In this document: positions 5,751 through 23,942 of the stretch, piece by piece
How the letters are laid out: each line of letters opens with the position of its first letter
How positions within the stretch are numbered: position 1 is the first letter of the stretch
Origin: Cedecea neteri
GTDB taxonomy: Bacteria; Pseudomonadota; Gammaproteobacteria; Enterobacterales; Enterobacteriaceae
Direction of reading: 5' to 3'
Assembly (NCBI RefSeq): GCF_000757825.1
Contig: NZ_CP009451.1
Coordinates: 3,596,001 to 3,660,000 of the forward strand
DNA: 64,000 bases
Position numbers and translations under genes: made by a program
Notes under the pieces: model-generated
The model's input: the letters and a program-made list of their open reading frames with translations, nothing else
Database searches by the model: none
Told to the model about the DNA's origin: nothing

Positions 5751-6782
5751 ATGACACAAGATAGCGTATTGGTTACCGGCGGGACCGGATTTATTGCCCA
5801 GCATTGCATTATTACGCTGCTGACAAAAGGCTATGAAGTTCGCACCACCGTGCGTTCCGCTGACCGCAAAGCAGAAGTGCTCAAAAACCTGAAAGAGGGC
5901 GGCTGTGAACCAGGCGATCGTCTCTCCTTTTTCGTTGCGGATTTAATGGCGGATGAAGGCTGGGCAGATGCTATGGCCGGGTGTAGCTATGTGATGCACG
6001 GCGCTTCCCCGACGCCTTCTGGCAACCACGCCACCGACGATGACTGGATCAAACCCGCGGTGGACGGCAACCTGCGAGTGCTCCGCGCCGCAAGCTTTGC
6101 GGGCGTTAAGCGCGTGGTGCTTACCTCTGCCTTTGGTGCCGTTGGCGTTGGGCATCCCGCAGGCCACCGTCGTCCGTTCGATGAAACGGACTGGAGTGAC
6201 GTCTCCGGTAAAGTCTGGCCATATCAGAAGTCGAAAACGATGGCTGAAAAAGCGGCATGGGCGTTTATCGAAAAAGAGGGGCGCGGGCTTGAGCTGTCGG
6301 CGGTGAACCCGGTGGCGGTGATGGGGCCGGTATTAGGGCCTGATTTTTCCCACTCCACGCGGCTGGTGAAAAACATGCTGGACGGGCAAAAGGGCAACCC
6401 GAACATCAACTCTTGCTTTGTGGACGTGCGCGACGTGGCCGATTTGCACTGGCTGGCGATGACGCATCCTGCCGCCAACGGGGAGCGCTTCCTTGCCAGT
6501 TCCGGCCACAGTCTGCTGATGGTTGAGGTGGCAAAAATCCTGCGTAAACACCTCGGTGAAGCCGCCAGCAAAGTCTCCACCCTCGCGCTGCCGGACTGGA
6601 TGGTGCGCCTGGCGGCGCACAAAAATCCGGGTATGAAAGGGTCGCTGACTCTGCTCGGTGTGGACATGAATGTGACCAACGCGAAAGCGGTAAACCTGCT
6701 CGGCTGGGCGCCGCGCTCCCCGGAGGAGGCTATTGTCGCCACCGCCGAAAGCTTTATTCGCCTGGGTTTACTGGAGAAATAA
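5751..6782 (+). CDS. NAD(P)-dependent extended SDR aldehyde/ketone reductase
   Basis: A 343-residue protein of the extended short-chain dehydrogenase family, close in layout to dihydroflavonol-4-reductase/cinnamoyl-CoA reductase-like aldehyde reductases. The Rossmann nucleotide-binding motif TGGTGFIA is at residues 9-16, and the catalytic Tyr and Lys are in WPYQKSK (about 159-165). Length is normal for the family and the reading frame is intact. It probably reduces aldehydes or ketones in the cytoplasm. The divergent AraC regulator next door is the likely controller. The physiological substrate cannot be read from the sequence. Confidence 0.85.
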   Translation: MTQDSVLVTGGTGFIAQHCIITLLTKGYEVRTTVRSADRKAEVLKNLKEGGCEPGDRLSFFVADLMADEGWADAMAGCSYVMHGASPTPSGNHATDDDWIKPAVDGNLRVLRAASFAGVKRVVLTSAFGAVGVGHPAGHRRPFDETDWSDVSGKVWPYQKSKTMAEKAAWAFIEKEGRGLELSAVNPVAVMGPVLGPDFSHSTRLVKNMLDGQKGNPNINSCFVDVRDVADLHWLAMTHPAANGERFLASSGHSLLMVEVAKILRKHLGEAASKVSTLALPDWMVRLAAHKNPGMKGSLTLLGVDMNVTNAKAVNLLGWAPRSPEEAIVATAESFIRLGLLEK

Positions 6783-6784
6783 AC

Positions 6785-6897
6785 CCTGGCAGCGTGTGGC
6801 CTTCAGCCGTGGCCACGCTAAGGCTATCTGAAAGCGCCTGCCTCATCAGGGCTTCTCCGCCCTGCGTCGCCAGAATATCGCCCACGCTGCCGGGCAT
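6785..6897 (-). pseudogene. Remnant of ketopantoate-reductase-like gene (C-terminal fragment)
   Basis: On the minus strand about 37 codons read PGSVGDILATQGGEALMRQ and then SDSLSVATAEGHTLP. This resembles the C-terminal domain of the ApbA/PanE family of 2-dehydropantoate 2-reductases. A stop codon lies just upstream, no N-terminal Rossmann domain is present, and the fragment abuts the decayed mqsR. I read it as debris of a lost gene. The family call rests on remembered sequence pattern only and could be wrong. Confidence 0.45.
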
Positions 6898-6959
6898 CGG
6901 TCATTTCTGAAGATGTCTCGAGGATTTGAATCTGGTCAATTTACACACAGGTTAATCTC

Positions 6960-7034
6960 ATGGAGAAGAGAACGCCCCACACCCGTCTGAGTGTTATTCA
7001 CTCTATGGTCAGAGCAAATACTAAGGAGTCCTGA
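6960..7034 (+). pseudogene. mqsR: mqsR toxin remnant with large internal deletion
   Basis: The ATG at 6960 opens a 24-codon frame whose first 11 residues, MEKRTPHTRLS, are the start of the E. coli MqsR mRNA interferase. The last 13, VIHSMVRANTKES, line up in length with the end of MqsR (VIH...KEK). About 74 central codons, including the whole catalytic RelE-like core, are missing, and the join is in frame. It stops 1 bp before the mqsA start, the same spacing as in the E. coli mqsRA operon. The product cannot be an active endoribonuclease. Confidence 0.8.
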
Positions 7035-7035
7035 T

Positions 7036-7437
7036 ATGAAATGCCCAGTGTGCGGTGGCAATCATGCCGTTCATGAAGCCCGTGATATTCATTATGAATA
7101 CAAAGGCCATTCAAAGACGTTTCCAGGCGTGACCGGGCTGCATTGCCATGATTGCGGCGAAATTGTTTTCGCCGACGGGGAAGGTGAAGAGTATTTCACC
7201 GGTATGCTGGCATTTAACCGTGAAGTGAACGCTCAGGAGGTCGACCCTGCTTTTATCGCGGCGGTGCGGAAGCGTTTAAAACTGAACCAGGCGTAGGCTG
7301 CGGAGTTTTTTGGCGGGGGCGCAAATGCCTTCAGCCGCTATGAAACCGGGTGTATTGCTCCGCCACGTCCATTAATCCTCTTATTTGAAGCCCTGGATAA
7401 ACACCCTGAGCTTTTCGAAGAACTCAAAACAAGTTAA
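7036..7437 (+). pseudogene. mqsA: mqsA antitoxin interrupted by an in-frame amber codon
   Basis: The frame from the ATG at 7036 encodes the N-terminal zinc-binding domain of MqsA (MKCPVCGG, then GLHCHDC, providing four cysteines). It stops at a TAG at 7294-7296, after 86 residues. Reading straight on in the same frame gives the DNA-binding half (AAEFFGGGANAFSRYETG, then ALDKHPELFEELKTS) to TAA at 7435-7437, so a single codon change, probably GAG to TAG by comparison with E. coli, splits the gene. The ribosome binding site AAGGAG is at 7023-7028. The truncated product would keep the toxin-binding domain but lose the XRE-type helix-turn-helix. The last 4 bases overlap the convergent LysR gene. 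Without an intact mqsR there is no toxin to neutralise. Confidence 0.85.
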
Positions 7438-8366
7438 ACGTCCTGCCAGTAGGGCGGTGAACCAAACTTCCCCATAAAGAAGTCGATGACGGTGCGGGTG
7501 TTGAGCGACGGAAAGCGGCCGCCGGGGTACAGCATATAGAGTGAATGATCGGTGGCGCTGTAAGACGCGGTGTAATCCGTCATCAACGGAATCAGCCGTT
7601 GAGTCCGCAGCGAGTCGCTTATCTGCCAGTCCGGGAACAGCACGATACCCGCGCCGTCTTCCGCGGCTTTCACCAGCATCTCCGCATTGCCGGAAACGAT
7701 TTTAGGCTCCGGCAGGAGCTGTAGCTTCTCTTCACCCTTCGTAAAGTACCAGCGCTGCAGCCCCATCAGGCCGCGGTAGGCCAACAGCCTGTGGCCGTGC
7801 AGGTCTTCCGGCGTTTGCGGTAAGCCGTAGCGTTCGAGGTAGGCCGGGCTGGCGACCAGATAAGCACGCTGCCGGGTAATGAAGCGCCCGTGAAGCGAGC
7901 TGTCCTGCACCGGGGCAATGCGCAGCAGCAGGTCCGTACCGTCCGCCAGCGGGTCGATGTAGTTATCGGTCAGGTTTAGCTCCAGCCGCAACGCCGGGTA
8001 GCGCTCGCTGAGTTCGGCAATCCACGGGGCAATGTGGCGCAGCCCGAAGGAGACCGGGGCGTTAAAGCGAAACACGCCACCGGGCTGCTGGCGACGCTCG
8101 CCAATCTGGGTTTGCGCCTGCTCAAGCTGGCTGAGCATTTCCCGGAACGCGGCGGCGTAGATATTCCCCGCATCGGTGGCGGCCACCGCTCGTGTATTGC
8201 GGTAAAGCAACTGGGTCTCCAGAGACTGCTCGAGCTGAATCACGGTGCGCGAAACGGAAGAGGGGGACAGATTTTCCTGGCGGGCCACTTCGGAAAAACT
8301 GCCTTCGCTGATGACCGCCAGGAAGAGGCGTATCGAGCGGGCGTTTATCTGGCTAAGATCTTTCAT
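7434..8366 (-). CDS. LysR-family transcriptional regulator
   Basis: A 310-residue LysR-type regulator. The N-terminal winged helix-turn-helix occupies residues about 5-65 (FLAVISEGSFSEVARQENLSPS, SVSRTVIQLEQSL). The C-terminal periplasmic-binding-like effector domain follows (RFNAPVSFGLRHIAPWIAEL onward). I chose the ATG at 8366 (MKDLSQINARS); the 31-residue upstream extension lacks family features. It is divergent from the nitroreductase gene (8489), with 122 bp between starts, the classic arrangement for a LysR regulator and its target. Effector unknown. Confidence 0.88.
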   Translation of the reverse strand: MKDLSQINARSIRLFLAVISEGSFSEVARQENLSPSSVSRTVIQLEQSLETQLLYRNTRAVAATDAGNIYAAAFREMLSQLEQAQTQIGERRQQPGGVFRFNAPVSFGLRHIAPWIAELSERYPALRLELNLTDNYIDPLADGTDLLLRIAPVQDSSLHGRFITRQRAYLVASPAYLERYGLPQTPEDLHGHRLLAYRGLMGLQRWYFTKGEEKLQLLPEPKIVSGNAEMLVKAAEDGAGIVLFPDWQISDSLRTQRLIPLMTDYTASYSATDHSLYMLYPGGRFPSLNTRTVIDFFMGKFGSPPYWQDV

Positions 8367-8488
8367 TTGTGCAGTTTCCGCAAAAGTCTTTAAGGGATTA
8401 TACGGTTTTTCGCTATGCCCGGCAGCGCTAACATCCTCGGCAGCAAATCTTTCCGGCACATTGCCGGGTTATAAACAGAGAGGATGGT

Positions 8489-9169
8489 ATGAGCAATCAG
8501 GTTCTGGCTTTTGACGAGGCCGTGCGCCAGCGTTTTTCATCGCGAGCGTTTCTGTCTACGCCGCTGACCAACGAGCAGATTCAGGCCGTTTTGCAGGATG
8601 CGCAATATTCCCCGTCCAACTGCAATACGCAGCCGTGGAACGTGCATATTGTCTCCGGCGCAACCAAAGACGCGCTGCAAAAGATGATGATTGAGAACGA
8701 CATTGCGGGCAACGTAACGCCGGACTTCAGCTTCAGCTATGACGACTTCCACGGCGACTACTACGAGCGCAGCCAGCGCCAGGCGAAGGTTTATTATGAT
8801 GCGTTAGGCATTGCCCGCGATGATAAAGAGAAACGCCGCGAAGCCTACCTGCGTAACTTCAACTTCTTCGGGGCGCCACACGTGGCCTTCCTGTTTATGC
8901 CGTCGTTTGGCGACAACGTGCGCGTGGCGTCAGATATCGGTATGTACGGCCAGAGCTTCCTGCTGTCTCTTGCGGCACGCGGTTTTGCCGGTATTCCGCA
9001 AACGCTGCTGGGCTTCCATGCTGACGCGACGCGTAAAATTCTGGGCGTGTCGGATGACTATCGCCTGCTGTTCGGCATCTCTTTTGGTTATGCCGACCCG
9101 GATGCACCTTCCGCTGGCGTACGCATGTGGCGTCAGAGCGTGGACGAAAGCGTAACGCTGCATAACTAG
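8489..9169 (+). CDS. Nitroreductase-family flavoprotein
   Basis: A 226-residue protein of the FMN-dependent nitroreductase superfamily. The N-terminal FMN-binding signature SSRAFLSTPL is at about 17-26, and PSNCNTQPW (about 42-50) is the typical flavin-binding loop. The C-terminal half contains the conserved GIPQTLLGFH and FGISFGYAD segments. It probably reduces nitroaromatics, quinones or similar acceptors with NAD(P)H in the cytoplasm. It starts 122 bp from the divergent LysR gene, which probably induces it. The start has the ribosome binding site GAGAGGA. Confidence 0.88.
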   Translation: MSNQVLAFDEAVRQRFSSRAFLSTPLTNEQIQAVLQDAQYSPSNCNTQPWNVHIVSGATKDALQKMMIENDIAGNVTPDFSFSYDDFHGDYYERSQRQAKVYYDALGIARDDKEKRREAYLRNFNFFGAPHVAFLFMPSFGDNVRVASDIGMYGQSFLLSLAARGFAGIPQTLLGFHADATRKILGVSDDYRLLFGISFGYADPDAPSAGVRMWRQSVDESVTLHN

Positions 9170-11238: not shown

Positions 11239-11508
11239 ATGCCAGCTTTAAAAAAACAGCGTATCGATCTTAGATTAAGCGACGACGACAAAAGCATGAT
11301 CGAAGAGGCTGCGGCAATGTCCAACCAGACGATCACTCAGTTTATGATTGCCTGTGCGTCTGCGCGCGCTGCGGAAGTGATCGAGCAACATCGCCGCCTG
11401 GTCCTGAATGAAGCATCATGGAACCTTGTGATGGATGCTATCAGCAACCCGCCTGAACCGGATGACAGGCTCAAACGTGCAACAAGGCGTCTGAAAGACA
11501 TGGAGTAA
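11239..11508 (+). CDS. tacA: DUF1778/TacA-family ribbon-helix-helix antitoxin
   Basis: An 89-residue antitoxin of the DUF1778 family. The N-terminal ribbon-helix-helix is at about 7-55 (KKQRIDLRLSDDDKSMIEEAA, then MSNQTITQFMIACASARA). The C-terminal part (VLNEASWNLVMDAISNPPEP) is the toxin-neutralising segment typical of TacA, AtaR and KacA. It ends 3 bp before the toxin start and probably represses the operon together with the toxin. Confidence 0.9.
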   Translation: MPALKKQRIDLRLSDDDKSMIEEAAAMSNQTITQFMIACASARAAEVIEQHRRLVLNEASWNLVMDAISNPPEPDDRLKRATRRLKDME

Positions 11509-11511
11509 GCC

Positions 11512-12036
11512 GTGGCAGACCTGATGATTGAATTATTTTCAGAACAAACTGCGTATGATTTTCGCGGCTTCGACTGCGGTGAAGCTTCTCTGAATGCGTT
11601 TCTCTCCGAGCACTTTGTCCGGCAGCATAATGGCCGCTTTTTACGCGGCTATCTTCTTGTGACAAAGGACGCCAATCCCAAAGTGCTGGGTTACTACACT
11701 TTGTCCGGCAGCTGCTTTGAAAAAGAGGCGCTGCCGTCAAACACCCAGAAGCGAAAAATCCCTTATGCCAATGTCCCCAGCGTGACGCTGGGGCGGCTGG
11801 CGATTCACAAAGATCTGCAGGGCCAGGAATGGGGTTCGACGCTAGTGGCGCATGCGATGAAGGTGGTTTATTTAGCTTCGCAGGCGGTGGGCGTTCATGG
11901 GATTTTTGTCGATGCCATTAACGACAATGCGAAGCGCTTTTATCAAAAATTAGGGTTTATTCCGCTGGTGGGAAAAAACAACAATTCGCTTTTTTATCCT
12001 ACCCGCTCGATTGAGAAATTATTTGAGCAAGAATAA
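11512..12036 (+). CDS. tacT: GNAT-family tRNA-acetylating toxin (TacT/AtaT type)
   Basis: A 174-residue GNAT acetyltransferase downstream of a DUF1778 antitoxin, the standard arrangement for toxins that acetylate the amino acid on aminoacyl-tRNA and stop translation. The acetyl-CoA binding region is VTLGRLAIHKDLQGQEWGS (about 85-103), and the C-terminal catalytic tyrosine is in RFYQKLGFIPL. The start is probably the GTG at 11512; ATG at 11524 is an alternative. The pair looks intact, unlike mqsRA nearby. Which tRNA is modified cannot be told from the sequence. Confidence 0.88.
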   Translation: MADLMIELFSEQTAYDFRGFDCGEASLNAFLSEHFVRQHNGRFLRGYLLVTKDANPKVLGYYTLSGSCFEKEALPSNTQKRKIPYANVPSVTLGRLAIHKDLQGQEWGSTLVAHAMKVVYLASQAVGVHGIFVDAINDNAKRFYQKLGFIPLVGKNNNSLFYPTRSIEKLFEQE

Positions 12037-23578: not shown

Positions 23579-23942
23579 TGGTGGAGCTGGCGGGAGTTGA
23601 ACCCGCGTCCGAAATTTCTACATCCTCGGTACTACATGCTTAGTCAGTCTTTACATTCGCCGGGCAACTGCGGACAGACACGCCATTACCAAACTATCCT
23701 GATTAGTTTTAATGCTTCAACCCCAGGCAAGGCATCCACACGATCTCTTTTGGGTTTGACCTCTCTTTGATCCCCGTCTTAAGAGCGGAAGCTAGGGAGA
23801 GAGGGCTCAGAGCAGGTTATTAAGCTGCTAAAGCGTAGTTTTCGTCGTTTGCGACTATTTTTTTGCGGCTTTTTACGAGGCCAACCGCCCCTCGGCATGC
23901 ACCTTGGGTTTCGCAAATCCCGTCGAATCCAGAATCAGCCCC
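23579..23942 (-). ncRNA. ssrA: tmRNA (ssrA)
   Basis: The mature tmRNA is about 364 nt on the minus strand. The 5' end (GGGGCTGATTCTGGATTCGA) is at 23942. The 3' tRNA-like end, with the TTCAACTCCCGCC T-arm and terminal CCA, is at 23579. The internal tag frame encodes ANDENYALAA followed by TAA (about 23853-23820), identical to the E. coli tag as I remember it. With SmpB it rescues stalled ribosomes and marks the products for degradation. The 3' end is a known integration site for islands and the P4-type integrase remnant lies just beyond it. Here ssrA is separated from smpB by the 17-kb adhesin operon. Confidence 0.97.

Follow-up and report, generated by a model that had tools for sequence, protein, structure and literature searches.

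Is an mqsRA toxin-antitoxin operon with a gutted toxin gene and a stop codon inside its antitoxin gene simply dead, or has the part of the antitoxin that can still be read been kept for a use of its own? The question is raised by a locus in a stretch of 64,000 nucleotides of Cedecea neteri (the window), which covers positions 3596001-3660000 of a single-contig genome of 4,876,443 bp (a chromosome of about 4.88 Mb). Comparison with relatives indicates that the locus is very probably a dead operon, and that the most plausible cause of its decay is ordinary loss of selection. As such, it represents the ordinary decay of a chromosomal toxin-antitoxin operon, an already described process. PMC7167474 and PMC2654758 describe such decay, through deletion and nonsense mutation, in E. 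coli, and PMC7354431 reports on a Klebsiella survey that found a high share of orphan antitoxins apparently degraded from whole systems. Decaying loci such as ccdO157 of E. coli show the same kinds of lesions at a fixed position, although they belong to another toxin-antitoxin family and another genus. A literature search for truncated MqsA found no paper, and among the matches listed for Cedecea together with MqsR or toxin-antitoxin, none mentions Cedecea.

Lesions of the control region, toxin gene and antitoxin gene

At least three separate lesions affect mqsRA, one in the control region, one in the toxin gene and one in the antitoxin gene. The features concerned, in window coordinates, are the following:

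6788..6907, minus strand: remnant of a PanE/ApbA-type gene, 120 bp, 77-83% identical to G002-G007 and lying within a gene that G004 has whole and that matches PF02558/PF08546
6946..6955, plus strand: scar of a 40-bp deletion, with only the right half (AGGTTAA) of an operator-like palindrome remaining in the alignment with G004
6960..7034, plus strand: mqsR remnant, made of the 19 first codons, 2 junction codons, the 3 last codons and the stop, from the alignment with G004
7023..7028, plus strand: AAGGAG, probably the ribosome-binding site of mqsA, preserved in the surviving sequence next to the mqsR deletion
7036..7293, plus strand: zinc (toxin-binding) part of mqsA, 86 codons (PF15731, 91.4 bits; TIGR03831)
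7294..7296, plus strand: in-frame TAG at mqsA codon 87 of 133, where the five full-length relatives used for comparison all have a sense codon
7297..7437, plus strand: remainder of mqsA behind the stop, helix-turn-helix (HTH) part, 46 codons plus stop (PF15731, 57 bits)
7434..8459, minus strand: LysR-type regulator, a conserved flank whose stop overlaps the mqsA stop and which has a DNA match in all eight genomes of the genus

The homology to mqsRA is far beyond chance. The best reference is the intact, syntenic pair of another genome of the genus (G004), which matches positions 6940-7016 with 88% identity (E 6e-22) and positions 7022-8927 with 86%, at the same site and with the same LysR/nitroreductase flank; all three lesions are absent from G004, which also retains five upstream genes. 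Set against this locus the lesions are real, as the original prediction held in stating that both halves of the operon had been hit by different ones. When E. coli genomes and plasmids were searched in distant mode with the locus, no match was obtained. At the protein level, the sequences are homologous to E. coli MqsR/MqsA (PDB 3hi2, 3gn5, 2kz8), where, according to PMC6918082, the toxin gene also comes first; the window differs in that its toxin lacks the catalytic residues, its antitoxin is cut between the domains and its operator-like element is halved.

The mqsR remnant encodes 24 amino acids, a net in-frame loss of 225 bp or 75 of the 99 codons of the G004 gene. The two genomes are colinear through codon 19, which ends at 7016, and colinearity resumes at 7022, leaving five junction bases (7017-7021) that can be assigned to neither side. 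What survives is the first 19 and the last 3 codons with the two junction codons between them, not the first 11 and last 13 proposed earlier. That proposal seems to have confused VIH (codons 12-14) with the VIH found at the C-terminus of MqsR in E. coli, while the stretch VIHSMVRA to which it belongs is N-terminal, with FIHSMVRA (codons 12-19) as its G004 counterpart. The deletion covers the positions of both Lys56 and Tyr81, residues that E. coli MqsR needs for cleavage according to PMC9636575. The remnant has no Pfam or NCBIfam match and stays below the PF15723 cut-off, and a search for the deletion junction in viral contigs gave 0 matches.

Just 5′ of mqsR, a 40-bp deletion at about 6946-6948, missed in the original prediction, has removed the left half and centre of the operator-like palindrome. 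A widely spaced AACCT..AGGTT just before mqsR is common to G004 and three other relatives (L021, L023 and L027). More generally, 19 mqsR loci were scanned, of which seven yielded no upstream sequence (four without a match, three without a recognised start); of the 12 loci whose start was recognised, 8 have a paired ACCT..AGGT, a frequency given without a chance control. Further upstream, the five genes that separate the epimerase gene from mqsR in G004 (MFS transporter, AraC-type, PanE-like, HxlR-type and alpha/beta hydrolase) are missing from the window, apart from the 120-bp PanE remnant and a short stretch adjoining mqsR.

The antitoxin frame (7036-7437) is colinear with MqsA throughout. 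Its zinc part, related to the solved structures 3hi2, 3gn5, 2kz8 and 3ga8, keeps Cys 3, 6, 37 and 40, the zinc cysteines given for E. coli MqsA in PMC2791442. The toxin-first order and the short gap are also kept, with the mqsR TGA at 7032-7034 and the mqsA ATG at 7036-7038, so that the 1-bp spacing noted at the outset holds and is that of intact G004. The proposed separation of the zinc part from the HTH part by the TAG is borne out by the two pieces matching PF15731 apart. The HTH domain is still coded, but behind the TAG, and hence not in the same protein as the zinc domain; since inspection of the sequence behind the TAG revealed no in-frame ATG, GTG or TTG, it is left without an obvious restart. 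Amber suppression was considered and rejected, as a search that left 47 of 197 first-look candidates unscored found 81 tRNA genes and among them no CTA anticodon, which would read UAG.

The history of the locus can be proposed as follows. The ancestor common to G004 and the genome of the window would have carried mqsRA at the same chromosomal site. In the lineage of the window, one deletion cost the operator/promoter element its left half and its centre, an in-frame internal deletion cost the toxin gene three quarters of its length, both catalytic residues included, and a nonsense codon cut the antitoxin between its toxin-binding zinc domain and its DNA-binding domain. The resulting locus would yield neither toxin nor repressor, and the zinc-domain fragment probably in small amounts at most.

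Loss of mqsRA within the genus

The eight genomes of the genus comprise one with intact mqsRA (G004), one with the decayed locus of the window, four with scars and two without trace (G001 and G006), in line with profile counts of one genome with MqsR and two with MqsA above the cut-off. In G002 and G003, the last 63 bp of mqsA survive behind nearly the same filler, and in G005 and G007 a hydrolase frame that has lost its stop continues into a few bases resembling the end of mqsA. These scars, few as the bases are in the second pair, argue for a former presence and later loss of mqsRA. One genus thus offers, at one site, an intact operon, a lesioned one, two kinds of deletion and trace-free genomes, which makes the loss of mqsRA traceable by strain comparison.

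The states of the operon do not agree with the tree of the flanking genes. The first scar type is shared by G002 and G003, the second by G005 and G007, whereas the flanking tree, with all genes or with the LysR side alone, places intact G004 with G005 and G002 with G007; the left-side tree is poorly resolved. This disagreement suggests recombination or sorted polymorphism behind the scar distribution. The nearest named homologues of the flanking LysR-type regulator are from C. davisae (84%) and C. lapagei (90%). Among near kin, a database MqsR of 82 amino acids (P0020), from a contig of 618 bp, has an end unlike that of the family, of the kind a frameshift would produce; it represents either a further broken allele or an error of sequencing.

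The zinc-domain fragment and the order of the lesions

Two features count against the reading of the operon as dead. One is that mqsA keeps its ribosome-binding site, with AAGGAG preceding the mqsA start in all 12 loci compared, G004 included, and its start codon. The other is that the dN/dS between the window and G004, stop codons excluded, is 0.054 for mqsA codons 1-86 and 0.013, with dS saturated, for codons 88-133, values that do not exceed the range of four neighbours (0.044-0.117), the second lying beneath it, measured for the neighbours on stop-to-stop frames (lysR 0.117, nitroreductase 0.117, epimerase 0.068 and AraC-type 0.044). Because these values are still low, the decay must be recent.

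The free zinc-domain fragment of the original prediction, of 86 residues, is possible. Its expression is doubtful, because little is left of either the operator region or the mqsR stretch that holds two mqsA promoters in E. coli (PMC6918082, section 6). A promoter scan of 6700-7500 found no promoter-like site in the window, and is uninformative since intact G004 likewise has none.

The same fragment bears on the order of events. It had been claimed that the order is readable, with the toxin lost first, but at this locus it is not readable. According to PMC2791442, cells co-expressing MqsR can grow with no more of E. coli MqsA than its residues 1-76; beside a working toxin, a codon-87 stop therefore need not be lethal. 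The argument for a necessary prior loss of the toxin may thus fail in the case of MqsA, since in E. coli its zinc domain is enough to neutralise the toxin. Nothing at the locus itself orders the TAG against the deletions. The wider family leans towards toxin-first loss as the general rule, since all 19 family genomes with MqsR have a full-length MqsA without a stop and none of them shows a whole mqsR beside a cut mqsA; toxin-first is therefore the better guess in general. One of the 19 (G179, of another genus) has at its locus L020 an mqsR with an in-frame TAA and an adjoining mqsA without a stop, a case of broken toxin and whole antitoxin.

The ability of the zinc domain to neutralise MqsR in E. 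coli also speaks for the main alternative, in which the 86-residue domain has been kept as a streamlined orphan antitoxin against the MqsR of plasmids or phages, in an anti-addiction role. In its favour, a survey of 295 genomes of the family (cut-offs of E <= 1e-10 for MqsA and E <= 0.001 for MqsR) found MqsA in 24 and MqsR in 19, all of the latter within the former, and the five genomes with MqsA but no MqsR, among them that of the window, all have a readable zinc part and nothing more of the antitoxin that can be read. A second genus (g76) provides a close parallel. One of its three genomes (G082) has both genes, and the other two (G202 and G275, loci L120 and L119) are decayed: mqsR is in fragments, as in the window the toxin is gutted, and the ribosome-binding site, the mqsA start and an open zinc frame of 65 codons are kept, the difference being that the HTH part was lost by one common deletion of about 170 bp instead of by a stop codon.

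Against this role stand the loss of the operator and of most of mqsR in the window and, with the little weight already stated, its lack of promoter-like sites. Moreover, the five zinc-only genomes represent at most four events, and some of them may belong elsewhere. Loci L121 (1480-1689) and L122 (1489-1704) encode solitary zinc-only MqsA-like proteins of 69 and 71 amino acids, with no mqsR or HTH remnant seen next to the frame, which are possibly a separate small zinc-only family; a weak MqsR match of 41 residues (E 0.001) about 1 kb from the zinc frame of L121 was taken as chance. The test that decided the matter was made in g76. The zinc frames of G202 and G275 differ by 18 changes with a dN/dS of 0.33, and comparison with the intact sister gives values of 0.17 and 0.41, as against 0.051 for a neighbouring peptidase gene, and their departure from neutrality reaches P 0.055 in a simple neutral simulation. 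The g76 zinc frame is under relaxed constraint, and recurrence alone therefore makes no case for function. After this test, anti-addiction was rejected as the best explanation and is regarded as unlikely. The broader proposal, that selection has repeatedly favoured loss of the toxin and the DNA-binding domain as an end state giving zinc-only, repressor-free antitoxins against MqsR in several Enterobacteriaceae genera, is held to be quite unlikely.

Reality of the stop codon and other features of the window

Ordinary decay of a dead operon thus remains the preferred reading, and the next explanation to be weighed is that an error of sequencing or assembly created the TAG, mqsA being in fact a full-length orphan antitoxin. 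It draws on a database MqsA of 133 amino acids (P0004) that is identical to the window over the first 86 residues and is apparently a full-length antitoxin of near kin, this entry being a 90% cluster of 15 member sequences, without gene context, that may also hold sequences of the G004 type. The only two other differences from P0004 lie both behind the stop, at positions invariant in the five full-length relatives, as would be expected if the stop were old enough for the rest to drift. Expressed over all invariant codons, changes affect 2 of 34 after the TAG (codons 106 and 118) and 0 of 43 before it, a weak contrast (Fisher P 0.19). Judged from these comparisons, the two changed codons and the identity to P0004 fit, if weakly, a stop that is real and of fairly recent date. 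Whatever the status of the TAG, the other two lesions are unaffected, and a sequencing or assembly error is considered very unlikely.

That the locus is a recombined extra copy, with a working mqsRA elsewhere, is extremely unlikely, since nothing was found in its favour, the whole single-contig genome gave 0 matches to PF15723 (a model also silent in 14 named control genomes, yet able to find MqsR in G004 and in the 19 family genomes), and the only other PF15731 match, to the HTH part, is weak (22.7 bits, below the cut-off). With no other MqsR found in the genome, the reading of the locus as toxin-antitoxin decay, put forward in the original prediction, is supported.

About 4 kb downstream of mqsRA, at 11239-12036, the window holds a second toxin-antitoxin-like pair, of the TacA/GNAT type (PF08681 followed by a GNAT acetyltransferase), in which both frames are open. 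A tmRNA gene lies at 23579-23942 on the minus strand; tmRNA genes are common integration sites for islands.
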